Shown here in pieces: positions 3,420 through 60,316 of a DNA stretch of 64,000 nt. Numbering within the stretch: position 1 is the first letter of the stretch; the number at the start of each line of letters is the position of its first letter. The notes beneath the pieces are model-generated. The model was not told the DNA's origin and did no database searches. It worked only from the letters and a program-made list of their open reading frames with translations. This DNA comes from Phycisphaeraceae bacterium (GTDB lineage: Bacteria; Planctomycetota; Phycisphaerae; Phycisphaerales; SM1A02), in assembly GCA_015709595.1 (NCBI GenBank), contig CP054178.1, forward strand, positions 1,741,205 to 1,805,204, given 5' to 3'. Both the position numbers and the translations under genes were made by a program.

Positions 3420-4865
3420 TCAGCGGCCGTCATCGCGCCCGCCGTCCCCGCGATCGTGAGTCGAGGCGTCGATCTCCACCTCGCGTACCGCGGCGATGAG
3501 CCCGTCAATCTGCCCGAGCCGCGCCGCCAGGCCGTCGATGCGGAAGCGGTCGGCGTCGCTCCGGTCGTTGAGCGAGCGTCGGTAGTCCTCGAGCCAGTGG
3601 GGGAGTTCGCGGACGCCGCTGATGCGCGCCGCCAGCCCGGCGACGAGCGCCGCCATGATCTGCCGGCGCTCGCGGCGCAGCGACAGGGCGTGGCGCTCGG
3701 TCTCGGCGGCGTCGCGGGCGTGGAGCAGCAGCTGCTCGCGCGTCAGCGCGTGCGGATGGTCGAAGTCGTGTCCCGGCGCGAGGCGGCGGCCGGTCAGCGC
3801 CTCCTCCGCCAGCCGATCGAGCCGGGGGCGGGCCGCCTCCACCTCCGCCTCCAGCGAGGCGATCTCGTCGGGTCGGTCGCTCAGCAGGGACAGGCCGCGC
3901 GACAGGGCGTCGTGAAACTCCGTCTCTTCCTCGAAGAACTCTGGTTCGACCTGCCGGTAGAACCTCGCCCGAAAGGCCCACGACCGGCTGCGCGGCAGCG
4001 TGTCGGCGATGCGGCGCATGAATGACCAGTTGATCTCCGCCAGCGTCAGTTCGGTGGGTGAACCGACGGCGCGCCACTTCTCGAACGCTCGGTTGACGCG
4101 CAGGCGCGATTCGTCATCCAGCACGTACTCCCAGCCCACGCCCAGTTCAAGCTCCCGCAGCGCGGCGCGCAACTCCCGCCGCATGGCCCATTCGTAGTCG
4201 CGGGCGGTGAGCGCCCGGATGATGGCGACGTGGTACTGGTCGAGAATCGGCTCGATGGCGGGGCGTTCGGGCTCGGTGGGTTCGAACGCGGCGACCAGTT
4301 CCGCCAGGTCCACCCGGTCCTCCGCCCAGTCGGAGAGCGGTTCGAGCAGCGCTCGCAGCCGCGCCGCCTGCATGGCTCGCAGCCGGGGCAGACGTTCGGG
4401 GGGCGCCAGCCCGCCGATCACGCTCACGGCATACTGATCCGCCGCCAGGATGGCCCGCATGAGCGACTCATGCTCCCGGAGCGTCTCGGTCAGCGCCGGG
4501 CTGGGAATGGCCTGCACTTCTCTGCGGTCGCGGCTGTACTCGAAACTGGCGGGCCAGAGCGAGCCCAGCCGCCGCATCGCTCGGGCATGCACCTCGCGCA
4601 CGGTGTTGTCATAGTGGTTCACCATCAGGTCGATGGGCTCCTGGTGTTCGGGTCCGACGCCCAGGTCGGCGGCCCATCGGCGCAGGTCCGCCTCGGAAAG
4701 GGGCGTGGGGATCAGGTGATCCCGGTGGCGGCTCAGACGCATGGCGCGCTCCATGTCTTCGAGCGTGCGAAGCGAGCCATCCTGGCTCGACGCCGCATGC
4801 GCTGACGCGAGAACGATCAGCGCCGCCATCGCCAGTCCGGTCACGAACGCGCGATTCTGGTGCAT
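3420..4865 (-). CDS. Exported helical protein of unknown function
   Basis: A 481-residue protein with a clear signal peptide (MHQNRAFVTGLAMAALIVLASAHAASS). The mature part is strongly charged, rich in Arg, Glu, Leu and Ala, and probably mostly helical, with many long Leu/Arg/Glu runs between about residues 100 and 470. No catalytic motif is visible. The reading frame is open to 4979, but Met at 4865 was chosen because it starts directly at the signal peptide. It is transcribed away from the ankyrin genes, sharing a gap of about 100 bp. I do not recognise a family. Confidence 0.75.
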   Translation of the reverse strand: MHQNRAFVTGLAMAALIVLASAHAASSQDGSLRTLEDMERAMRLSRHRDHLIPTPLSEADLRRWAADLGVGPEHQEPIDLMVNHYDNTVREVHARAMRRLGSLWPASFEYSRDRREVQAIPSPALTETLREHESLMRAILAADQYAVSVIGGLAPPERLPRLRAMQAARLRALLEPLSDWAEDRVDLAELVAAFEPTEPERPAIEPILDQYHVAIIRALTARDYEWAMRRELRAALRELELGVGWEYVLDDESRLRVNRAFEKWRAVGSPTELTLAEINWSFMRRIADTLPRSRSWAFRARFYRQVEPEFFEEETEFHDALSRGLSLLSDRPDEIASLEAEVEAARPRLDRLAEEALTGRRLAPGHDFDHPHALTREQLLLHARDAAETERHALSLRRERRQIMAALVAGLAARISGVRELPHWLEDYRRSLNDRSDADRFRIDGLAARLGQIDGLIAAVREVEIDASTHDRGDGGRDDGR

Positions 4866-4972
4866 GTGCCGTTTCCCGTCGAATGAACCGGGCTCCCGTG
4901 CGTGTCTGTATGATGACGGGTCACCCCACGCAAGGCCACCCCTTTGTACGGGGCGGCGATGGAGCGGCATCC

Positions 4973-6682
4973 ATGCCATTTCACGGGTCGGCGACCATCC
5001 TGGCGGCCCTGGTGACGCTGGCGGGCCTGATCTGCGACCGAATCGCCGTGGTCCGGGTTTCGGACTCGACGCGGGCGCTCCCCGCCTCCGACCGGGAGGC
5101 GGCTGATCCGCTTCAGCCGCCGGTTCAGCGAGACAGCGCGGGGCGCGCCGCCATCCACCGGGCGGCGATCGAAGGCGACCTCGACGCCCTGACGGCCGAA
5201 CTGCGGTCGGGCGTGCCCGTGGACCTGCCCGTCATTTCCACCGATCCGGACGAGCAGGGCAAGACGGCGTTGATCTTCGCCGCCTCGGCCGCCAGGGCGG
5301 ATGATCGAGTGGTCGCCGCGCTGCTGCGGCATGGCGCCGATCCCAACGCCGCCACCGGATCGGGAATCACCGCGCTGATGGGCGCGGTGCTGCGCGGCGA
5401 CGTTGATCGCGTGCGCCCCCTGCTCAGCGCGGGCGCCAAGGTCCGCCACGCCGACCGCGACGGCGTGACCGCCCTGCACCTGGCGGCGGGGGGCGAGTCG
5501 ATCGAGATCGCGCGCCTGCTGCTCGACGCCGGGGCGGACGTGAACGCACGCGACGCCACCGGCGCCGCGCCCGTGGGCGAGGCGGCCGCCGCCGCCCCGT
5601 GGGAGATGGTCCAGTTGCTGCTCGACGCGGGAGCCGACGTTGAATCCCGCGACCAGCGCGGCTTCTCGCCGCTCATGAACGCCGCCTGGCGCAACGATGC
5701 GGTCATGCTGCGACGCCTGCTCGATCGCGGCGCCAGGCCCGGCGCTCCCAACCGCGACGGCTACACGCCCCTGATGGCGGCGGCCCATCGCGGCTCGCCC
5801 GAGTTGATCACGATGCTGCTCGAAGCGGGGGCGAACGTCGAGGCGCGATTCACCGGCTTCGACCCCGCCGACCCCGCCAACGCCGGGCGCGAGCCGGACG
5901 GCTCCACGCCGCTTATCTTCGCCGTCAACTTCGGCGCCGCGGCCAACGTGCGCACGCTGATCCAGGCGGGCGCGAACGTCGAGGTCCGCGACCGCACCGG
6001 CAACACGCCCCTGCTTCACGCCGCGCTGCGCATCAACCGCGAGAAGGTCGCCATGCTGCTCGAGGCCGGTGCGGACGTGAACGCAACCGACCCCGCGGGA
6101 CAGACGGCGCTGATCTTCGCCTCGTGGTACGGCAAGCACGACATCGTGCGGCTGCTGCTGGACAGGGGAGCGGATGTCAACCACGTCGATTCTTCCGGCT
6201 TCACCGCGCTGCTGTGGAGCGCCCTGGACCCGCAGAGCAATGTGGCGACGCTGCGCACACTGCTGGACGCGGGCGCCACGGTGAACCACCGCACCGAGGA
6301 CGGCGTGACGGCGCTCTTCCTCGCCGCGGACCGCGACCAGGTGGAGATGGTCGATCTGCTCCTGGCCCGCGGGGCTCAGGTGAACGCGGTGGCGGCGGAC
6401 GGCACCACCGCGCTCTTCGCCGCCGCCGGATCGGGCGGGCACGACGCCCTGCGCCGCCTGCTTGCCGCGGGCGCGGACACGCAGAAGCGCGACGAGAAGG
6501 GGCGCACCGCCCTGATGTGGGCCGCGGCCACGGGCGTGCCCACCGCGGTGGAGACGCTGCTCAAGGCGGGCATCGACCCGAAGGCCACGGACGCCCAGGG
6601 CAACACCGCGCTGGAATACGCCAGGGTGCGCACCGACCTGGCGGGCAGGACGATCATTGAAATGCTGGAGCGGGTGAAATGA
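4973..6682 (+). CDS. Exported ankyrin-repeat protein, about 15 repeats
   Basis: A 569-residue protein with an N-terminal hydrophobic segment (ATILAALVTLAGLICD) that acts as a signal peptide or anchor. From about residue 55 to the end it consists of roughly 15 ankyrin repeats of about 33 residues, with the usual TALxxAA and LLLDAGADVNARD features. Ankyrin solenoids bind other proteins; no catalytic domain is present, so this looks like an extracytoplasmic binding protein. Its stop overlaps the start of a second ankyrin gene by 4 bp (ATGA), so the two are co-translated. The start at 4973 is the ATG just before the hydrophobic segment; an upstream in-frame ATG exists at 4883. Confidence 0.9.
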   Translation: MPFHGSATILAALVTLAGLICDRIAVVRVSDSTRALPASDREAADPLQPPVQRDSAGRAAIHRAAIEGDLDALTAELRSGVPVDLPVISTDPDEQGKTALIFAASAARADDRVVAALLRHGADPNAATGSGITALMGAVLRGDVDRVRPLLSAGAKVRHADRDGVTALHLAAGGESIEIARLLLDAGADVNARDATGAAPVGEAAAAAPWEMVQLLLDAGADVESRDQRGFSPLMNAAWRNDAVMLRRLLDRGARPGAPNRDGYTPLMAAAHRGSPELITMLLEAGANVEARFTGFDPADPANAGREPDGSTPLIFAVNFGAAANVRTLIQAGANVEVRDRTGNTPLLHAALRINREKVAMLLEAGADVNATDPAGQTALIFASWYGKHDIVRLLLDRGADVNHVDSSGFTALLWSALDPQSNVATLRTLLDAGATVNHRTEDGVTALFLAADRDQVEMVDLLLARGAQVNAVAADGTTALFAAAGSGGHDALRRLLAAGADTQKRDEKGRTALMWAAATGVPTAVETLLKAGIDPKATDAQGNTALEYARVRTDLAGRTIIEMLERVK

Positions 6683-8568
6683 ACCTGGCGAAGTCGGCGC
6701 GACTGTTCTCGGCTGGATTCCTGGCGGTCCTTACGCTCGCCGCGCACGGTCAGGACCAGGCCCGCGCCACGCCCGAGGACGCCACCGGCGGTGCGTCGAT
6801 CCACCACGCCGCCCAGCGGGGCGACATCGAGGCCATCCGCCGCGAACTCGCCAAGGGCGTGGATGTGAATCTCATCATCCAGAGTGATCGCCCGCGCAAG
6901 CACGGACTGACGCCGCTGCACCTGGCCGCCTCGCACGCCGACGCCGCCACGGTGCGGTTCCTGATCGAGCACGGCGCCAACGTCCACGCCCGCAACGGGC
7001 AGGAGTCGCTGGCGCTGATTCTCGCCGGCGCGTACGGCGACGCGGAGCGTCTGCGCGTGCTGCTCGATGCCGGCGCGGAGGTGAACGCACGCAACATCCT
7101 CGGCTCCACCGCGCTCACGGTGGCGGTGGCGTATGGCACGCTGGATCGGGTGCGCGTGCTGCTCGACGCCGGGGCCGATCCGAACATCCCCGACGAGCGC
7201 GCCAACACGCCGCTCATCTACGGCTGCCGCTTCGCCGAGGCGGCCATCATTCGCGCCCTGCTCGATGCAGGCGCGAAGGTCGAGCCCGTCGGCGAAGGCG
7301 GGCTGACCGCCCTGAGCATGGCGGCGGGGTGGAACAGACCCGACGTGGTGACGATGCTCCTCGACGCCGGGGCGGATGTGAACGCCGTCGCCCCCAACGG
7401 ACGCTGCGCCTTCCTGGCGGCGATCGAGTTCGGCCACGATCGCGTGCTCGATGTCCTGCTGGAGCGCGGCCTGAAGCTCGACCAGTTCGCGCAGGATGAG
7501 TTCACGCCTCTTTCCGCCGCCGCGTTCTTCGGACGGGACGAGATGGTTGAGACGCTCCTGCGGCGCGGTGCGAACGTGACGCTGACGTCGCCCACCGGGC
7601 GCACCGCGCTGCTGGCCGCGGTGATGGGCGGGCACATGGACATCGCCAGGCGGCTCATCGAGGCCGGCGCCGTGGTGGACGCCCGATCCGAGCAGGGCGC
7701 CACCCCCCTCATGCAGGCATGCGGCGAGGGATCGATCGAGATGGTCAATCTGCTGCTTGACCACGGCGCGGCCGTCAACGCGCGGGACAGGTTCGGCTCG
7801 ATGCCGTTGCTGGCCGCGGCGGGCAGCCCCACCGACTCCGGCGCGAAGATCGTCCGACTGCTGGAAGCCGGCGCGGACCTGAACGCCGTCAACACATCGA
7901 GACAGGGCGCGGTGCATGCCGCCGCATGGTCGGGCAACGTCGAGGCGCTCAAGGCGCTCGCCCGGGCTGGCGCCGATCTCGCCGCTCGCGACAAGACCGG
8001 CTACGGCGTGCTCCACTGGGCCAGCCACGGCGGGCACGCGACGGCCATCAAGCACCTGCTCGCCGCGATGAAGGATGAACTGGAGCGTGCGACGGACGAA
8101 GGGCTGACGCCGCTGATGATCGCCTCGCGCGAGGGTCGAAATGAGGCCATCGGTGTGCTGCTGGCCGCCGGGGCGAACATCGAGGCCCGCGACCCGCGCG
8201 GCCGCACGCCCCTGATGCATGCCGCGACGCGCGCTGGCGTGACCACGGTGGCGCTGCTGCTCGAAGCGGGGGCGGATCGTCAGGCCGAGGACGCGCAGGG
8301 CTGGACGGCGCTCGACTACGCCGGGGCGCGCAAGGACGAGGCGAGCGATGCGGTGGTGGAGTTGTTAGGCCGCAGTATGGGGATGGCGTGGCAGTGCCGA
8401 TTCCGGATGACTGTCCCGGCACTCAGCCAGTCCGAGAACGCCGATTGGCTTGGGCAGCGCGTGACTACGGGACACCTGAGACAAACGGTAATGCGAAGTC
8501 AGAAGTCGATCCCGCGCAGCCCGTCACGGGTCGAAAAAACCGGGTGCGCATCAAAGCCCGGTCGATGA
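6679..8568 (+). CDS. Exported ankyrin-repeat protein, about 16 repeats, with an aberrant C-terminal tail
   Basis: A 629-residue protein starting with a signal peptide (FSAGFLAVLTLAAHGQ). About 16 ankyrin repeats run from residue 35 to about 563, with several LLDAGADVN units. The layout matches the preceding gene, so the pair probably arose by duplication and may form one surface complex. After AVVELLGRS the repeat pattern stops and about 65 residues of unrelated, basic, low-quality sequence follow. The last 70 bases run antisense into the 3' end of the pseudopilin gene. The preceding paralogue ends right after its last repeat, so this tail is probably read-through created by loss of the original stop codon. 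Confidence 0.85.
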   Translation: MNLAKSARLFSAGFLAVLTLAAHGQDQARATPEDATGGASIHHAAQRGDIEAIRRELAKGVDVNLIIQSDRPRKHGLTPLHLAASHADAATVRFLIEHGANVHARNGQESLALILAGAYGDAERLRVLLDAGAEVNARNILGSTALTVAVAYGTLDRVRVLLDAGADPNIPDERANTPLIYGCRFAEAAIIRALLDAGAKVEPVGEGGLTALSMAAGWNRPDVVTMLLDAGADVNAVAPNGRCAFLAAIEFGHDRVLDVLLERGLKLDQFAQDEFTPLSAAAFFGRDEMVETLLRRGANVTLTSPTGRTALLAAVMGGHMDIARRLIEAGAVVDARSEQGATPLMQACGEGSIEMVNLLLDHGAAVNARDRFGSMPLLAAAGSPTDSGAKIVRLLEAGADLNAVNTSRQGAVHAAAWSGNVEALKALARAGADLAARDKTGYGVLHWASHGGHATAIKHLLAAMKDELERATDEGLTPLMIASREGRNEAIGVLLAAGANIEARDPRGRTPLMHAATRAGVTTVALLLEAGADRQAEDAQGWTALDYAGARKDEASDAVVELLGRSMGMAWQCRFRMTVPALSQSENADWLGQRVTTGHLRQTVMRSQKSIPRSPSRVEKTGCASKPGR

Positions 8569-9269
8569 ATCCAACCGCCGCTGCTGACAAACGGACGAAC
8601 GGCCACGGAACCATCACCGGCGGCCATTCCGAGGTGGGTGAGGTGTAAATCGGGTTGCGACTGCGCCAGATTGCTCCCAATATCGACCAGAATGCCCTTG
8701 CGTGCGGGCCATCGCATCTCCGTCATGCGCGTGCCCCGCAGCATGCCGCTGTCGTACGGCGCATCCGAGAAGAAGGTGGGGCTGGCGAAGACCGTGTACG
8801 TGATCCTGAAGCGGTTGAGAAAGAGTGAAGGATCAATCCGCAGTTCCTTCTCGATGTTCAGTGGGTGCAGGTGGGGGCGGGCGTCGAACGAAAGGGGCTG
8901 GAGATCGGGAAATCCGCTCATGTACGGAACCACCATGTTCGCCCACGTCCACGACTGGCGATCGAAGTGACCACCTGCCGGAAAGTTGAAGACGTTCCTG
9001 CCGTACAGTTCGTAGGGTCCGTCAATGTCCCCCGGAACGCCCCAGTAGGGGAACGCCGATTCGTTGCTGTTGGCGTAGAGAACGAGCGCGGCAAACGTCT
9101 GGCGCAACGCCACCAACGCCGCCGCATCCTGCGCCGCGTTCCGAACGCGTCGTACCGCGGGCAGGGCGAGTGACACCAGCATGGCGACAATCGCCAAAAC
9201 AACCAGCAGTTCGACGAGTGTGAACGCTCTCCGCACGTCAGCAGCTACGACGCCGTGAGAATGGCCCAT
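8499..9269 (-). CDS. Type II secretion/type IV pilus-like pseudopilin (H-X9-DG family)
   Basis: A 256-residue protein with a class III prepilin signal: a short basic leader, then RRAFTLVELLVVLAIVAMLV followed by LALPAV. A prepilin peptidase would cleave before the Phe and methylate it. The C-terminal region contains HLGMAAGDGSVAV, which fits the DG motif of the planctomycete-type processing-associated domain. The start at 9269 is supported by AGGAGCAG just upstream; the frame is open to 9389 but without pilin features. Its role is probably to build a short pseudopilus for secretion or attachment. No other assembly gene is nearby, as is usual for these scattered planctomycete pilins. Confidence 0.88.
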   Translation of the reverse strand: MGHSHGVVAADVRRAFTLVELLVVLAIVAMLVSLALPAVRRVRNAAQDAAALVALRQTFAALVLYANSNESAFPYWGVPGDIDGPYELYGRNVFNFPAGGHFDRQSWTWANMVVPYMSGFPDLQPLSFDARPHLHPLNIEKELRIDPSLFLNRFRITYTVFASPTFFSDAPYDSGMLRGTRMTEMRWPARKGILVDIGSNLAQSQPDLHLTHLGMAAGDGSVAVRPFVSSGGWIHRPGFDAHPVFSTRDGLRGIDF

Positions 9270-9326
9270 GATCTGCTCCTTTTCACTCGTTCGCCAAATT
9301 CTCAAGAAGAATGGGCCGATCCGGAC

Positions 9327-9356
9327 TTGGCATCCTACGGTGGGGGGGGGTAGTCT
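9327..9356 (+). promoter_or_regulatory. Possible promoter of cassette 1 with a run of nine G in the spacer
   Basis: TTGGCA (9327-9332) and TAGTCT (9351-9356) are separated by 18 bases that include nine consecutive G at 9342-9350. It lies about 45 bases before the first gene of the cassette. The match to the consensus is weak, so this is a suggestion only. Confidence 0.25.
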
Positions 9357-9400
9357 GTCAACACGTGTCTCGGTCAACACGCAAACCAAAGGATCCGACC

Positions 9401-9655
9401 ATGAAGCCGCGGCTCACACTCGTTCTGGCGCTCACCTTGGCCGTTTCGTGCCTTCCGGCGCTCGTCGCGTGGGCGCAGGGCGATCCGGGTGATAGCGCAC
9501 CCGTTGACTGCGTCGGTCAATGCACGGGGACGATTCAGTGCTCCGGTCTCAACCGAGTTTGCTGCTGTACCAGCGGGACAACGTTCATCCGCACATGCCT
9601 GGAACCGGATTCGCCGTATTGCAGGAACGGTGCCTTGAATGACCACAGGTGCTGA
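9401..9655 (+). CDS. Small exported cysteine-rich protein (cassette 1)
   Basis: An 84-residue protein. Residues 1-25 are a signal peptide (MKPRLTLVLALTLAVSCLPA then LVAWAQ). The mature part of about 58 residues holds nine cysteines, including a CCC run in the centre, and little hydrophobic core, so it is probably stabilised by disulfides or binds metal. AAAGGA lies at good distance before the ATG. It is the first gene of a three-gene plus-strand set that ends with a MauE/DoxX-like membrane protein; 8 bp separate it from the next gene. I do not recognise a family. A similar small Cys-rich exported gene occurs in the second cassette at 58128. Confidence 0.72.
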   Translation: MKPRLTLVLALTLAVSCLPALVAWAQGDPGDSAPVDCVGQCTGTIQCSGLNRVCCCTSGTTFIRTCLEPDSPYCRNGALNDHRC

Positions 9656-9663
9656 GGTGATCC

Positions 9664-10527
9664 ATGCGTGACCGGGGAAGTCTCGATCAGCGGGTGCTCT
9701 TGCTGATTGCCGCGATACTCGTGGCGGGCGCGGTTCTCTTTGCATGGCTGCGTTGGGATACCCGTGAGACGGCGGCACAGTACGTCAAGCGACTGGCCGA
9801 TGAGGCGCAGGTTCAGTTCGCGACGTTCAGTTTCACGCCCATCAGCGAAATCAGGGATGTCGCGGCACATCTGGCGTCACACGCCGTCAATGGTGTCGGA
9901 ATCGAACTTGCCACCATTGAACAACGCTCGGCTCTTCTCGACGCGGTCAGTGAGCATTTGAGGATGCGATTCGGTCAGGACGACCCCGCGCGATACCTCG
10001 AGTGGCGACGGTCGTTGGGAGCACCGCTCCGCCCCACAGCGACGCTGCGGGACGAACTCGCGCGGTACCTTGCCGCAGCGACTGGCCAGGAGTTCACTCC
10101 AGAGATGACTGGCGAAGAGGCCTTCACTTTGTCGTGGACTGCCTTCAACCAGTCTCGCTCGGGGGGCAATATCCCCAACGCGCTTGCCGAAGCACCAAAG
10201 AGCACGTTCATCAGTTTTCAGACGCTGTCGTCTCGGGCCATGTCACCGCCAGTGCACTCGCGGGATGACGCCCACATCCGCTTGTGGAACGGGGGGATCG
10301 CCTACAGCTCTCCGCACTTCACAGACACGGACCCGCCGCTGCGGACACGTTTGGAGGCGGACCCCACGCTTGGCGGATTCGTGACGAGTGTCGTGAAGTA
10401 TGGAGATGGGGTTCCCCGTCCGACCACATGGTGCTTCTTTTGGGATGAGGGACGCACGCGGTGGGTTCTCTATCACATTGCGATCAACAACGCCGTCGGC
10501 GATGGAGTGCGGCCCCCAGATGTTTGA
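9664..10527 (+). CDS. Membrane-anchored protein of unknown function (cassette 1)
   Basis: A 287-residue protein with one N-terminal membrane helix (about residues 11-29, LLLIAAILVAGAVLFAWL) and a soluble extracytoplasmic part. That part looks mixed alpha/beta: helical about residues 35-165, then Trp- and Phe-containing strands (IRLWNGGIAYSS, TTWCFFWDEGRTRWVLYHI). There is a single Cys, near the end. No enzymatic motif is visible. Spacing to both neighbours is minimal, and its last codons overlap the start of the MauE-like gene, so the three are one operon. Codon use is less GC-biased than in the housekeeping genes around it. Confidence 0.7.
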   Translation: MRDRGSLDQRVLLLIAAILVAGAVLFAWLRWDTRETAAQYVKRLADEAQVQFATFSFTPISEIRDVAAHLASHAVNGVGIELATIEQRSALLDAVSEHLRMRFGQDDPARYLEWRRSLGAPLRPTATLRDELARYLAAATGQEFTPEMTGEEAFTLSWTAFNQSRSGGNIPNALAEAPKSTFISFQTLSSRAMSPPVHSRDDAHIRLWNGGIAYSSPHFTDTDPPLRTRLEADPTLGGFVTSVVKYGDGVPRPTTWCFFWDEGRTRWVLYHIAINNAVGDGVRPPDV

Positions 10528-10999
10528 ACCGCAAGTGTGTTCATCTTGGTCGCTCAGCCATCAACGTGCGGAGCGCATCATCGAGTTGCTTGTCGGTGGC
10601 CTGTTCCTCTTGACTGGCGTGTTCAAGTCGTGGGGTGTAGTGGGATTTGTCACGGTCATCTCCAACCTCATGATCGCTGCGAGACCCGAATGGCTTCCGG
10701 CAGCCGTGCCCGTCGCCCTCGCCGTTCTCGGGTGGGAAGTTCTGCTCGGTGCCTGCCTGGTGCTGGGCGTACGCCCAGCCATCTTCCTGCCGGCGACTCT
10801 GCTGACCTTGGGGGTGTTCTCGGCGGTGCTTGTGCGCATCTGGATGAATCCCACACTTGAGAATTGCGGCTGCATGGGTTCCATCTCGATTCTCGGCGAC
10901 CGATTCGCGCATCCAACGTTCGGATTGGCGCGCAACGTGGTTCTCATGGCGCTCGTCGCTTTCGCATGGCATCGTCGCTCGACATCCATTCCAAAGTGA
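10502..10999 (+). CDS. MauE/DoxX-like four-helix membrane protein (cassette 1)
   Basis: A 165-residue integral membrane protein with four hydrophobic segments, starting near IIELLVGGLFLLTGVFK, WLPAAVPVALAVLGWEV, PAIFLPATLLTLGVF and ARNVVLMALVAFAW. Between helices 3 and 4 is NCGCMGS, matching the CGC(F/M)G motif of the MauE/DoxX redox group; MauE is needed for maturation of methylamine dehydrogenase, a disulfide-rich protein. The helix 2 motif WEVLLGACLVLG matches VELAIGAACLLG in the gene at 58553. It overlaps the preceding gene by 26 bp if the ATG at 10502 is used; the ATG at 10520 is equally possible. The proposed role is thiol redox work on the Cys-rich peptide of the same operon. Confidence 0.78.
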   Translation: MECGPQMFEPQVCSSWSLSHQRAERIIELLVGGLFLLTGVFKSWGVVGFVTVISNLMIAARPEWLPAAVPVALAVLGWEVLLGACLVLGVRPAIFLPATLLTLGVFSAVLVRIWMNPTLENCGCMGSISILGDRFAHPTFGLARNVVLMALVAFAWHRRSTSIPK

Positions 11000-11099
11000 C
11001 GTGACCGGCGGTAATCAAGGCCCGCTCCGCGTTGAACAACGGTATGTGGCGGAAGCGTCCAAGCGATCGCGTCGGGCATCCAGCGGTCCGTCTCACTCG

Positions 11100-11309
11100 A
11101 TCCGGCCCGGAACGCGCCCGTTCCTCTACCGCCGGCTCGACCCCGCAGCCGACCCTCTCGGGCGCGGCTACACGCTGTACGTGCCCGGCGCGGACAGTGT
11201 TGACGACGGCGGCCGCTGGAATCCGGAAAACCCAGACGCCGCGACCGATCCGGTCAAGGGGCGCGGGTTCGATCTGGTCTTCAACCTGCCGCGCGAAGCG
11301 CCTCGATAG
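11100..11309 (+). pseudogene. Remnant of the C-terminal end of a larger protein
   Basis: In the 515-base gap between the MauE-like gene and cysS, one frame ending at 11309 reads PFLYRRL, then GRGYTLYVPGADSVDDGGRW and GRGFDLVFNLP. This resembles the terminal stretch, roughly YxLYSxGxDxxDDGG followed by a final DxVxxLP, seen at the end of many large planctomycete proteins. The sequence before it in the same frame is not protein-like and no start or body is present. I read it as the surviving 3' end of a deleted gene. The rest of the gap shows nothing recognisable. Confidence 0.5.
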
Positions 11310-56265: not shown

Positions 56266-56613
56266 ATGGACAAACTCGCCGAGGCCGACATCGAAGCCCG
56301 TCTGGCCGCGCTCCCCGAATGGACGCAGCAGGGGGAGAACATCCAGCGGACGTACAAGTTCGCGGACTTCGCGGAGGCGATGGCCTTCGTCAACCGCATC
56401 GCCGAGCACGCCGAGCGTGTCAAGCACCACCCGGACATCCTGATCCGCTGGAACAAGGTGATGCTGACGCTCTCGACCCACGACGCGGGCGGACTGACGG
56501 CGATGGACTTCGACTTCGCCGACGCGGCGGACGGCCTGGCTTCGCCGGTGGAGGCGGGGAGCGGGGCAAGTGGAGGGAGTGGGGGGGGTGGAGGGCGGAA
56601 GGGGAAGAAGTAG
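56266..56613 (+). CDS. phhB: Pterin-4a-carbinolamine dehydratase
   Basis: Recycles the pterin cofactor of aromatic amino acid hydroxylases. The 115-residue protein has the family core: LPEWTQQGENIQRTYKF, the EHAERVKHHPDI motif with catalytic His residues, and LSTHDAGGLTAMDFDFA. A Gly/Ser-rich tail of about 20 residues ends in GGRKGKK. The start at 56266 has GGAG upstream; 56251 is an alternative. No hydroxylase gene is nearby. Its 3' end is partly duplicated at 56906. Confidence 0.92.
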   Translation: MDKLAEADIEARLAALPEWTQQGENIQRTYKFADFAEAMAFVNRIAEHAERVKHHPDILIRWNKVMLTLSTHDAGGLTAMDFDFADAADGLASPVEAGSGASGGSGGGGGRKGKK

Positions 56614-56872: not shown

Positions 56873-56905
56873 GGACTGAGTCGTCGAAATGTGCTCAGGA
56901 CCGCG

Positions 56906-57019
56906 ATAGATTTCGACTTCGCCGACGCGTCGGACGGCCTGGCGTCGCCGGTGGAGGCGGGAGGCGAGAAGGCCGTGGCGGGAAACGTCGATCCGAGTCG
57001 CCCTGAGCGAGCGCTGTAG
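56906..57019 (+). pseudogene. Duplicated 3' fragment of the pterin dehydratase gene
   Basis: Bases 56906-56962 repeat 56503-56559 of phhB with five mismatches in 57 positions and encode IDFDFADASDGLASPVEAG. The frame continues to a stop at 57019. The upstream part of the gene is missing, so it is a fragment. It lies between the inverted-repeat element and the terminator before cassette 2. Confidence 0.8.
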
Positions 57020-57105: not shown

Positions 57106-58131
57106 ATGGGGCTGTGGCGGCGTCCAATTCGATTGCTGGAATGCCTTTCAGTGACTTTGTACACGATCGCGTGTGCTGGGACTCATCTCGCCGACTCGCC
57201 ATCGGCGCAGCCGTCCCTGACAACTCAAGCAACTCAGGTACTCGAGTTCCGTGGGTACCGAGTACTCGTGTCTACGACGAATCTCAAGGAACTGGACCAA
57301 CTCCAGTACGAAACACTCGCCCGACAGGACGCCACAGACCGGCCGAAAGGGTATTTTTTCGACGGTTTGCTCTGGGGCACCGGCACAGCGGACACGAGTA
57401 CGTACGCTGGGCAGTTTGTCGATGCGGTAAACGTGCAGCAGGTCTCCTCGTTCAGGTTCTTTGATCGAATCGAGAGAGATCGAGCGATGGAGTTCCCTCA
57501 TCGGGCCGCCGTGTTTGGGAAGTCAGTGGGTTTCGCGTGGCGGGGCGACCCGCTGCGCGGCGTGATCGTGCAGTCAACGAACGGGGACGTTGATGTGGGT
57601 TTCAGGGCCGGCATTGACCTGTTCGATCAACTGTACGGCTACTCCACCGATCCACTGGAGTTCTTCGCCCGGCGGTTCGCATTGCCCGATGTGCGTGTCG
57701 AGCAGGCGACGAAGGGGGAGCATGAGCAGAAAGAGAATAGACAGTTGCTGGCGCTGCGTGCTGACGGCGCTTGGCGCGCGTCTCTCACCGTGAAGATCGG
57801 GGAGAGCGGTGAGGTTCAATCGTGGATGCTGCACGAGAGAATGAGTGATTCACTTGTTCTCACGTGGAGTATCGATCTCCGACGTGTCTCGGAGCATACG
57901 CGAGCTCTGCCAATCGCCCCGTCCATGATCCGCAATATCCACTCCGATGTGGCTGGAATGGATAGGACCGTCCTTCAGGATGTCACCGGGAAGCACTTGG
58001 GGCAGGACGGCGTGGTGAGCAATCCTGAGAGACAGTCTCTGGAATCGAGGCGGCGGTTCTACACGATCGCGGGGGCGATTGCCCTCTTCGCAGTGTTCAG
58101 CGTGGTAGCAGCAAAGGAGAAATCACGATGA
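57106..58131 (+). CDS. Exported protein with a C-terminal membrane anchor (cassette 2)
   Basis: A 341-residue protein. The N-terminus is a signal peptide with a possible lipid site (LYTIAC). The body mixes strands and helices (QVLEFRGYRVLVSTTNLKELDQL in pieces, GIDLFDQLYGYSTDPLEFF, WRASLTVKIGESGEVQSWML, LVLTWSIDLRRVSEHTRAL). A single membrane helix (IAGAIALFAVFSVVAA) followed by KEKSR closes it, like a C-terminal sorting or tail anchor. Its stop overlaps the next start (ATGA). Codon use is visibly less GC-rich than in the neighbours. No family recognised. Confidence 0.7.
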   Translation: MGLWRRPIRLLECLSVTLYTIACAGTHLADSPSAQPSLTTQATQVLEFRGYRVLVSTTNLKELDQLQYETLARQDATDRPKGYFFDGLLWGTGTADTSTYAGQFVDAVNVQQVSSFRFFDRIERDRAMEFPHRAAVFGKSVGFAWRGDPLRGVIVQSTNGDVDVGFRAGIDLFDQLYGYSTDPLEFFARRFALPDVRVEQATKGEHEQKENRQLLALRADGAWRASLTVKIGESGEVQSWMLHERMSDSLVLTWSIDLRRVSEHTRALPIAPSMIRNIHSDVAGMDRTVLQDVTGKHLGQDGVVSNPERQSLESRRRFYTIAGAIALFAVFSVVAAKEKSR

Positions 58132-58538
58132 ACTCCGGTCGATTCGTCAACGGTCTTGCGTGTCTGACCGTCCTCTTTCTTGTCATGGGCGGTCTGCAGG
58201 GACCACCTGGTGGTGGTGCGGATTTCTGCTATGTTCTCGAGTGGCAACAGGGAGCGTGCTTCGATACGCAACTGAACGGTCCAACCCTGAACTGCCAGTA
58301 CGGCTCCTACTACCAGTGGGTCGTCTTGCCGATGTCGCGACAGGCCTGCACCTCGGACTTTGCAGGACAGGGCTACAAGAACTGCATTCCACAGAGCGGG
58401 GAGCTGTTCTACCCCGTCAAGCGGCACTACATCTGCAGCAACGGATACGTTGTCGAGGCGGGTCAATCGGAATACACAGAGAATCCCTGCCGTCACGATG
58501 CGTACCCTGACCCCTTGCCTGATACTTGCAATCAATAG
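58128..58538 (+). CDS. Small exported cysteine-rich protein (cassette 2)
   Basis: A 136-residue protein with a signal peptide (LACLTVLFLVMGGLQ). The mature part of about 105 residues has eight cysteines, spaced 9 to 19 residues apart, with many Tyr, Gln and Asn. An even count suggests four disulfides. It sits between the anchored protein and the MauE-like gene, in the same operon. There is no clear sequence identity with the Cys-rich peptide at 9401, but size class, signal and gene context match. Confidence 0.72.
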   Translation: MNSGRFVNGLACLTVLFLVMGGLQGPPGGGADFCYVLEWQQGACFDTQLNGPTLNCQYGSYYQWVVLPMSRQACTSDFAGQGYKNCIPQSGELFYPVKRHYICSNGYVVEAGQSEYTENPCRHDAYPDPLPDTCNQ

Positions 58539-58552
58539 GCAGCGTGGATCCA

Positions 58553-60316
58553 ATGTTCATGCGGGTGGATCAAGTGCGAGTGGTGACCTCCTGGGTCAGC
58601 CACGTCGTAATCGGCGTGGTCATGATGGTCGCTGGGATCAGCAAGGTCGCGGATGCGAGTGGGCTCTCGCAGATCCTGCTATCGATGGGACTAGGCGGTC
58701 ATTGGGGCGGCTTGGTCGTGATCCTGCTTGTGGCTGTGGAACTCGCAATTGGTGCCGCGTGTCTCCTGGGGCGCTGGTCGCGATTTCTTACGTGGGCCAT
58801 CCTGTCCACGCTCGGAGCCCTGACGCTCGGAATGATCGTCGCCTATGTCTGGATTGACTCGAGTGCATGCGGTTGTTTCGGGGCGGCTAGGGGATGGTTC
58901 GGGGAGGCCACGTTCGAGGTCGCGTTGGCGCGGAATCTGGCGCTCATGGTCGTCGCACTGCTGCCAACGGTGGTGCATGGGCTAGTGCGCCAATCGGGCA
59001 CGCAAGGTAGCGTTCGAGGTTCGCCAACCGCATTGCTTACCTTGGCGTTCACGGGTGCCTGCTTTCAGGACCTTGCGGTTCAAGGCCAAACCACTTGGCA
59101 TGTGGCTCCTTGGCATATGCACTTGGAATCGCGGCTCGAGACCACCCTTCGCCCACTCCATGTCGATGAGATAGTGCGGCGGGTGGCACTGAGCGACGAT
59201 CAGGCGACTCTCCTCAAGGCACTGTACCAGGAGCATCGAACCAGAATGGCGGTTTTTCGGGCCGAACATGAGAAGTCGGTCGCCAAGGCGTTCGAAGGCG
59301 TGGATGTCGACCGTCTCGTTCGGACCAGCAATCGCGACCGAGAGGCGGCTCTTGCACCGCTCGCGGAATCCGAGCCGCTCTTGGCGCGGATTGCCGACGA
59401 TCAAGCGCAACTGGACGCTGACTTTCTGGAGTCGGCTCGGTCAGTTCTCAGGGAGGATCAAGCCGGGCACTGGAAGTCGTACCTGCGCTGGTTGAACCGA
59501 CAGCGATGGCTCCGCGCCGGGAGCGGCTACCCGGGGGATCATCTCGATCCCTTCGCCATCCTCGAAGGCATGGCGATCGATGAAGGCGACCTGATCGTGC
59601 CTTTCGACCAGTTTCAACAGCTTCTAACGCAATCGGAGGATGATCTTGACCGCGCTCTCGAACGTCGCGCAGTGTTCGCCATCAGACAGGCGCGTATGAC
59701 ATTTAGAACCGCACTGCGTCAGTCCAGAGCGGGGCGGCCCATCCACATCCTCAACGACGACGGAGATGTGATTGACGTCGCGTTCACTGATCCCGAGTTT
59801 GCGGCCATCATGCTCCGCGATGGCGCCGAATGGAATCGGTTGATTCGTGACGTGCATCAGATGCAGGAGTCCATTCGACAGCGGATCGCTCAGAGTCTAA
59901 GCGTGGAGCGTGCGACGGAGTTTCGGTCACGGGTCCGGGAGCTCGCGTCGGCCCATCAGCCCTTCCGCGCGGAGGGCTATATCGAGGAGCTTCTTCGACC
60001 CGAAGAATTGAGCGATGATCGCCGCGCTTTTCTTGAAGAACTCCTGACTGAGTGTCGTCGGCGTCACCGGGCATTCAACGATGAGCGGTACGAACTGCTG
60101 ATTCGGCAGGCCGAGATTCGCTTTGAGGCCGACGCCCCGAGATCCGCAGACCACCCGCGCTTGCTCGAGTCATACGAGATCGGCGATCGACTTCATCGGA
60201 TGACCCAGGAATGGGCGCAGGTGGATGACCAGTTCATGCTTCGCGCCTGGGGAATTTTTGATGCTGTCGAGCAATCGAGCATGACGCCTCCGCCCCTGTG
60301 GCGGAAGCGGAACTGA
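58553..60316 (+). CDS. MauE/DoxX-like membrane protein fused to a long helical domain (cassette 2)
   Basis: A 587-residue protein. Residues 1-150 have four membrane helices with VELAIGAACLLG in helix 2 and SACGCFGAARG between helices 3 and 4, the MauE/DoxX CGCFG motif. After another hydrophobic stretch (about 155-180), some 400 charged helical residues follow. Two parts of it look alike: ALSDDQATLLKALYQEHR near residue 208 and ELSDDRRAFLEELLTECR near 485, each followed by Arg/Phe/Glu-rich helix. The pattern recalls LTxxQ/Spy-like helices, without proof. The cassette 1 relative lacks this part. The ATG at 58559 is also possible. Confidence 0.75.
   Translation: MFMRVDQVRVVTSWVSHVVIGVVMMVAGISKVADASGLSQILLSMGLGGHWGGLVVILLVAVELAIGAACLLGRWSRFLTWAILSTLGALTLGMIVAYVWIDSSACGCFGAARGWFGEATFEVALARNLALMVVALLPTVVHGLVRQSGTQGSVRGSPTALLTLAFTGACFQDLAVQGQTTWHVAPWHMHLESRLETTLRPLHVDEIVRRVALSDDQATLLKALYQEHRTRMAVFRAEHEKSVAKAFEGVDVDRLVRTSNRDREAALAPLAESEPLLARIADDQAQLDADFLESARSVLREDQAGHWKSYLRWLNRQRWLRAGSGYPGDHLDPFAILEGMAIDEGDLIVPFDQFQQLLTQSEDDLDRALERRAVFAIRQARMTFRTALRQSRAGRPIHILNDDGDVIDVAFTDPEFAAIMLRDGAEWNRLIRDVHQMQESIRQRIAQSLSVERATEFRSRVRELASAHQPFRAEGYIEELLRPEELSDDRRAFLEELLTECRRRHRAFNDERYELLIRQAEIRFEADAPRSADHPRLLESYEIGDRLHRMTQEWAQVDDQFMLRAWGIFDAVEQSSMTPPPLWRKRN

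Follow-up and report, generated by a model that had tools for sequence, protein, structure and literature searches.

Within a 64,000-nucleotide (nt) stretch of the genome of a Phycisphaeraceae bacterium (contig CP054178.1, positions 1,741,205 to 1,805,204; the window), three forward-strand genes at 9401-10999 form an operon-like set, cassette 1, which joins a small Cys-rich peptide to a MauE-family membrane protein. The peptide gene (9401-9655, +) is an open reading frame (ORF) of 84 amino acids (aa) whose product has a Sec-type start and is probably secreted; assuming cleavage after AWA, a site read from the sequence and not called by SignalP, the mature peptide would comprise 59 residues, begin with QGDPG and carry nine Cys, including a CCC run. 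The second gene (9664-10527, +) encodes a 287-aa anchored protein of unknown family with one N-terminal hydrophobic helix, which we designate type A. The third (10520-10999, +), which shares 8 nt with the second, encodes a 159-aa membrane protein with CGC and RN motifs that matches the MauE family (PF07291) at 58.7 bits against a cut-off of 27 (E-value 9.7e-16). The single-sequence model of this protein, albeit of low confidence (predicted local distance difference test, pLDDT, of 57), displays four long helices and places the CGC (residues 116-118) between the third and the fourth. Pfam and NCBIfam scans gave no match to the peptide, and no Pfam family exceeded its cut-off with the anchored protein.

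A pseudopilin gene (8499-9269, −) lies on the opposite strand, divergent from the peptide gene and separated from it by 131 nt. Its prepilin N-terminal motif is recognised by PF07963 (28.7 bits, cut-off 21.2, E-value 8.5e-7) and by TIGR02532 (27.6, cut-off 16.3), and the Pfam scan gave no SBP_bac_10 match. An earlier inspection of this DNA (the sequence-only reading) had described the three genes at 9401-10999 as one operon with a nine-Cys secreted peptide; all three genes, the overlap of the last two and the nine Cys of the mature form are confirmed. That reading overlooked the pseudopilin, a fourth part of the cassette, as well as six further cassettes elsewhere in the genome.

The window contains a second set at 57106-60316. 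It consists of a secreted protein of 341 aa and unknown family with a C-terminal transmembrane (TM) segment (57106-58131, +), a probably secreted Cys-rich protein of 136 aa (58128-58538, +), whose mature form of about 113 aa would begin with QGPPGGG and hold eight Cys, and a MauE domain (PF07291, 55.7 bits) fused to a helical-looking, weakly LTXXQ-like region of about 430 aa (58526-60316, +). The sequence-only reading had regarded this set as built, in another order, from the three kinds of part found in cassette 1. The set is real and its MauE exceeds the cut-off, but the likeness is limited: the TM segment of the anchored protein is C-terminal, the protein has no family link to its cassette 1 counterpart, and the MauE is a fusion. 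Both MauE proteins of the window carry the CGC, and neither falls into an unrelated family. The A+T richness suggested for these genes also holds, the G+C fraction being 0.609 in cassette 1, 0.595 in the second set and 0.672 in the window.

In the entire 3.84-Mb genome, nine loci score over the PF07291 cut-off, and eight of them are cassettes; the ninth (L019) has a thioredoxin-like motif, identified by eye, and a different gene setting. Five of the cassettes (cassette 1 and L015-L018) are of type A, with an anchored protein of the cassette 1 family, a short MauE and a pseudopilin. The remaining three (57106-60316, L013 and L014) are of type B, with a secreted protein bearing a C-terminal TM segment, a Cys-rich protein of 120-142 aa and a fusion of MauE with a helical-looking stretch of about 400 residues. 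The type-A anchored proteins are only 15-23% identical to that of cassette 1, and the profile of the five paralogues (alignment A1) retrieved those five type-A loci from the genome and no others. The type-B C-terminal-TM protein of the window is 34% identical to its L013 counterpart, and the seven members of the corresponding alignment (A4) had no Pfam match up to an E-value of 0.05. Profile A5 gave near full-length matches in the three type-B cassettes of this genome and in the related genome G031, all of which are rows of A5, and a weak match in G353; two of the five members of A5 match LTXXQ weakly. Elsewhere in the genome, locus L060 (2077-6763) holds a standalone exported protein (5327-6763) that matches A5 in two parts, a second, similar-looking protein beside it (3843-5060) and an adjoining gene for a T2SSE-type ATPase. 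The G+C fraction of all eight cassettes is 0.59-0.63, which is 1.9 to 3.6 standard deviations (SD) below that of the genome (0.670, SD 0.022, 120 windows of 3 kb).

Peptides were sought with a fixed screen for products of 50-180 aa with a hydrophobic N-terminus and at least eight Cys beyond residue 22. Seven of the eight cassettes have such a peptide, six by the screen and one (L014) by eye. The same screen gave four hits in 400 kb of other DNA of this genome, two of which resemble real secreted Cys-rich peptides, one being that of locus L087 (see below). The precursors span 76-156 aa, and most of them display a hydrophobic N-terminus and an AxA-type site, as judged from their residues rather than by SignalP. 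Given the assumed cleavage sites, an N-terminal Gln with GxPG or DPG after it is common to all seven mature forms, and the peptide of a cassette that lacks MauE begins with QLPG. The peptide at 58128-58538 is clearly homologous to that of L013 (score 233, reached by 0 of 400 shuffles). The best score of the cassette 1 peptide within its genome, against the L018 peptide (60), was matched by 1 of 400 shuffles and by 17 of 400 that kept the Cys positions. A solitary secreted-looking peptide with 14 Cys and a GTG start (L095:172-468, the same as L121:8172-8468) lies downstream of cytochrome-oxidase-assembly-like genes, and no cassette partners were seen there.

The association of such peptides with MauE was examined in related genomes at 77 loci of MauE, each taken with flanks of about 6 kb unless the contig was shorter. 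Rather than being random, the sample followed a ranking (20 of the 35 rows from other genomes in one match list and 57 upper rows of another, with eight rows passed over within the sampled range), and its frequencies are not population frequencies. Unfiltered, the screen gave 15 hits on the strand of MauE and one on the opposite strand within 2.5 kb of it, and five and none, respectively, farther away. When ORFs that overlap better-supported genes were dropped, the near hits numbered 15 and 0 and the far hits 2 and 0 (p = 6e-4), with strand agreement between peptide and MauE at 15/15 (p = 3e-5). By eye, 12 of the 15 near hits are real (L028, L029, L030, L031, L034, L044, L046, L049, L052, L059, L065 and L119). 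The enrichment of small exported Cys-rich genes next to MauE in other genomes, which the sequence-only reading had put forward for checking, is thus positive. Outside the near range, a secreted-looking many-Cys peptide lies 4.8 kb from MauE in genome G189 (L116:11175-11693). A laxer screen (six Cys) gave 28 near and 8 far hits, several of the near ones being frames of MauE itself, which is why its p-value was not used; it also missed the L041 peptide, which was read by eye. With the cassettes found from the MauE tree described below, the final tally is 16 of 77 loci in ten genomes (G003, G026, G031, G035, G038, G136, G275, G300, G347 and G412), and a Cys-rich peptide was not seen at the other 61. 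A DUF1573 gene lies within 3 kb of MauE at 23 of the 77 loci, as found by profile, and only one of these (L119) also has a peptide.

A profile built from four cassette pseudopilins (A2), with the fifth held out, found five members of full length in the genome, each of them located at a type-A cassette. The held-out protein was retrieved with an E-value of 1e-55; its gene stands beside the L016 cassette and is divergent, as in cassette 1. The other 27 matches are partial, mostly confined to the N-terminal pilin region. Type-A cassettes include a pseudopilin subfamily of their own, so the unit is larger than the three genes of the sequence-only reading. Among the relatives, a motif search found a same-strand pseudopilin at 6 of 12 peptide loci and at 1 of 65 others (p = 2.5e-5). 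The genome of our bacterium contains 13 T2SSE matches, i.e. ATPases of type II secretion or pilus machines. In one relative, an insertion sequence with two transposase-like frames (L031:8076-9238) splits the cassette pseudopilin, the C-terminal half of which is found at 9465-9851.

In an alignment of 13 MauE proteins (A3), five of which come from the first 20 relatives' loci, the E, both Cys and the N are invariant and the G and R nearly so. Searches of the PDB with profiles A1, A3, A5 and A6 found no convincing relative, the best match being NuoK with A3 (E-value 0.004). On a tree of 81 MauE proteins, from which four of the 77 relatives' loci were dropped owing to a stop codon in the cut-out, the cassette MauE proteins cluster: there are 7 label changes compared to a shuffled mean of 18, and none of 500 shuffles was as low, although many forks are poorly supported. 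Two forks are dominated by cassette MauE proteins, and of the six uncounted loci within them four are cassettes too (L041, L042, L054 and L064), with peptides of 6-7 mature Cys that fall under the eight-Cys limit; the other two (L035 and L057) are not cassettes. This check inspected the strand of MauE, and L041 and L042, unlike L054 and L064, had been partly noticed beforehand.

Three cassettes of this genome are flanked by direct repeats in which the end of an adjacent gene is duplicated. At L013 the repeat is 127 nt long (96% identical; codons 23-64 of the called gene), at L014 it is 68 nt or, in another analysis, 50 nt (84%; the final codons, ending at the stop), and at L016 it is 77 nt (91%; in a ketosynthase-like gene of 442 codons, codons 414-439). 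At L031, in a relative, the last 16 codons of an EF-Ts-looking gene (41 nt, 88%) have a copy at the opposite end of the cassette, so that identity between copies is 84-96% over these four loci. The type-B cassette of the window has a 68-nt direct repeat as well, one copy near the 3′ end of the upstream gene (56496-56563, +; the gene ends at 56613) and the other (56899-56966, +; 90%) between that gene and the cassette, but both copies, 403 nt apart, lie on its left side only. No flanking direct repeat was found at cassette 1, L015, L017 or L018. Among 63 other MauE loci, which still include L054 and L064, there is one such repeat, inside a pair of DUF1573 genes. Long target duplication upon insertion has been described for restriction-modification systems (PMC3031569). 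The duplicated ends of neighbouring genes suggest that the cassettes are mobile, and insertion with a long target duplication may have occurred here.

At the edge of a contig of genome G031, a short frame directly next to a type-A anchored gene (L101:1083-1241) resembles the C-terminal end of IMP dehydrogenase and may be a further gene-end duplication. A short frame to the right of cassette 1 (11040-11309) resembles the C-terminal end of a larger protein, and this 97-aa fragment, used as a query, found no parent gene in the genome. To the left of cassette 1, at 4883-8568, there are two adjacent ankyrin-repeat-like genes that are about 37% identical to one another.

Among the closest known parallels is the mau operon, in which MauE, along with MauD, serves MauA, the disulfide-rich small subunit of methylamine dehydrogenase. 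The cassettes resemble it in placing a MauE-family protein next to a small exported protein so rich in Cys that it would require many disulfides, and differ in having pseudopilin and anchored proteins instead. A methylamine dehydrogenase system was rejected, as the seven window proteins scanned contain no MauD-, MauA-, MauB-like or heavy-chain domain; the members of A1, A4, A5 and A6 likewise contain no MauD, MauA or MauB domain, the whole genome not having been searched for them. In a study of Streptomyces, MauE is speculated to aid disulfide formation in the methylamine dehydrogenase beta subunit, and in three candidate families delineated by decRiPPter mauE occurs together with a predicted precursor of eight or more Cys, these families having passed a filter for biosynthetic genes, a transporter, a peptidase and a regulator (PMC7794033). 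Unlike these, the cassettes have a precursor with a signal-peptide-like start and linked pseudopilin or helical proteins. No modifying enzyme of the kind that acts on ribosomally synthesized and post-translationally modified peptides was found by the precursor, no enzyme family being over its cut-off in the cassette proteins scanned.

Bufferins and oxazolins have a Sec signal peptide, as the cassette precursors probably do, and share with the cassettes a Cys-rich product and, in many clusters, a small DoxX/MauE-like membrane protein (PMC12452194). The cassette membrane protein, however, is a MauE with CGC, no MNIO partner protein was recognised, and membership in the bufferin class was rejected on the grounds that no MNIO gene (PF05114, E-value up to 0.001) was found in the genome. 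The BT_3928 family has the MauE domain and the CGC motif in common with the cassettes, but NF045576 matches the MauE parts with scores (51 and 28) far below its cut-off of 250. The DUF1573-MauE groups of the relatives, many of them with a rhodanese-like gene as seen by eye, belong to the same MauE family, and at 22 of 23 such loci no peptide was seen. Planctomycete YTV proteins and N_methyl pilins are likewise Cys-rich exported proteins and greatly expanded pilin-type proteins, respectively; in Tuwongella immobilis the pilin-type proteins are expanded and often flanked by signal-peptide genes, and the YTV proteins are cell-wall proteins (PMC8567305), whereas the cassette peptides are small precursors. 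Searches of the open-licence literature, judged by titles and abstract openings, found no description of this cassette architecture, the only related item being the Streptomyces paper. The cassettes thus fit as a variant of MauE-linked clusters for Cys-rich products.

Combining these findings, we tentatively favour a model, which we rate as somewhat short of probable, in which every cassette produces a single exported disulfide-rich peptide, oxidises it and deploys it, and in which the cassettes themselves are portable modules that have spread and diversified. The peptide would exit via Sec and, once cleaved, begin with Gln (QG-x-PG or QDPG in this genome); its motif is seen, and the cleavage is deduced from it. 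The cassette MauE, a four-helix membrane protein whose CGC pair is taken to face the envelope, would then supply or relay the oxidising equivalents for pairing the 6-17 Cys, as linkage and the nature of the MauE family lead us to infer; in cassettes that lack MauE, general oxidases would pair the Cys. The anchored protein may hold or chaperone the peptide, and the pseudopilin (the helical protein in type B) may move or display it through the cell's own type II secretion or type IV pilus machine. As portable modules, the cassettes would have diversified, with some insertions leaving behind a duplicated end of the neighbouring gene. The disulfides, the redox control and any product, on which the sequence-only reading had built its notion of an export system, are likewise what we infer. 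A bolder version, which appears doubtful to us, posits a portable class of cassettes with a diversifying disulfide-rich peptide, its own MauE oxidase, an anchored partner, a dedicated pseudopilin and gene-end-duplicating insertion, all serving as a competitive weapon or a surface identity factor; if true, it would amount to an undescribed pseudopilin-coupled secretion system for disulfide-folded peptides.

A number of observations weigh against the model of one oxidised and deployed peptide per cassette. With regard to the peptides, (i) neither the screen nor a reading of the locus found one at L015; (ii) the L014 frame has no ATG, GTG or TTG ahead of its signal-like stretch and its start is uncertain; (iii) the mature Cys counts in this genome are even except in cassette 1 itself, which has nine; (iv) peptides of different cassettes are mostly devoid of demonstrable homology to each other; and (v) a search of the genome with profile A6 did not list the cassette 1 peptide. 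In the relatives, the unfiltered contrast between near and far hits on the strand of MauE is weak (15 vs 5, p = 0.012) and becomes weaker still upon removal by eye on the near side only (12 vs 5, p = 0.048); of the 15 near hits remaining after the overlap filter, that of L071 and the pair in L106 appear spurious, and of the two far ones that of L116 appears real. The MauE tree also has a third fork of mixed make-up, with three cassette rows; its eight other loci include no cassette, and tree position is therefore predictive only in part. At L016 and cassette 1 the pseudopilin gene lies on the opposite strand, which makes its co-transcription only putative, and the pseudopilin count after reclassification is 8 of 16 vs 1 of 61, with L041 and L042 added by eye and the 61 not re-read by eye. 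Under one common criterion, flanking repeats occur at 2 of 8 cassettes of this genome and 1 of 60 windows (p = 0.035), which tempers the claim of mobility; counting L014 as well gives 3 of 8 (p = 0.004). The single-sequence AlphaFold2 model of the anchored protein has a pLDDT of only 42 and offers no usable structure. Finally, the scanned cassette proteins include no recognisable thioredoxin-like partner, although MauE often works beside one, the one in the mau operon being MauD.

Two loci speak to the indispensability of MauE in this model, also to its detriment. L102, in the relative G308, has a pseudopilin, an eight-Cys peptide ORF and a type-A anchored protein but no MauE in 8.1 kb; the contig ends 0.2 kb beyond the pseudopilin, and G308 has no A3 match at an E-value of 1e-8. 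In the bacterium studied here, L087 (G000:C1:1160001-1180000) contains at 7640-11220 a cassette that lacks MauE and consists of a long exported protein, a 12-Cys peptide starting with QLPGSGG, another exported-looking protein and a DUF1573-like protein that spans two overlapping frames; the long exported protein is helical by eye only, the A5 profile not having matched it. Because these two peptide cassettes show no MauE, it looks accessory or optional. Of the earlier interpretation, the enrichment of peptides next to MauE stands, while the unit is larger by the pseudopilin subfamily and MauE does not look indispensable in it. MauE could accordingly be a mere passenger, an interchangeable accessory to a core of peptide, anchored protein and pseudopilin that would function as an adhesin or a fibre tip, and the linkage of the pseudopilin is at least as strong as that of MauE. 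We consider this improbable given that the cassette MauE proteins cluster on the tree and that all eight cassettes surveyed in this genome have MauE, though these were found through it.

Alternatively, the peptides could be bufferin-like thiol binders of copper or another metal, with the MauE/DoxX-type protein protecting or reducing thiols rather than oxidising them. The CC, CCC and CCCC runs of several peptides, and the weak LTXXQ matches in the helical type-B partner, a motif family that includes metal-stress proteins, lend themselves to this view, as does the coupling of Sec-exported Cys-rich precursors with DoxX in bufferin clusters (PMC12452194). Bufferins, however, require an MNIO enzyme, and PF05114 has no match in the whole genome (E-value up to 0.001); the scanned cassette proteins revealed neither a metal regulator nor a transporter nor a DUF2063 domain; and the linked pseudopilin finds no place in such a scheme, which we deem unlikely on balance. 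The presence of eight strongly diverged copies in one genome, the patchy distribution, the low G+C content and the duplicated gene ends beside several cassettes would also suit modules of antagonism, in which the peptide is a short-range toxin or bacteriocin, the anchored protein is an immunity or delivery partner and strain competition drives diversity. This explanation concerns purpose, not chemistry, and is compatible with disulfide folding, but low G+C content and patchiness fit fast evolution of any surface protein equally well, and scans of Pfam and NCBIfam, PADLOC and PHROGs not having been searched, found no toxin, bacteriocin or immunity family; we regard it as possible but rather doubtful. 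That Cys-rich frames and unrelated genes merely happen to neighbour MauE could be argued from the shortness of the peptide ORFs, the weak codon scores of many, their lack of a family match and the spurious-looking near hits. This reading was rejected as exceedingly improbable in view of the complete strand agreement, the recurrence in ten other genomes, the recovery of the held-out pseudopilin and the cassettes found from the tree.

Under the favoured model of an exported disulfide-rich peptide per cassette, the ill-understood MauE family gains a concrete candidate substrate. Several cassette component families carry no Pfam name, and the cassettes are natural replicates within one genome, most with MauE and one lacking it, which makes the role of MauE in disulfide formation directly testable. 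Furthermore, if the pseudopilin link is functional, some of the many pilin-type proteins of planctomycetes would serve dedicated cargo.

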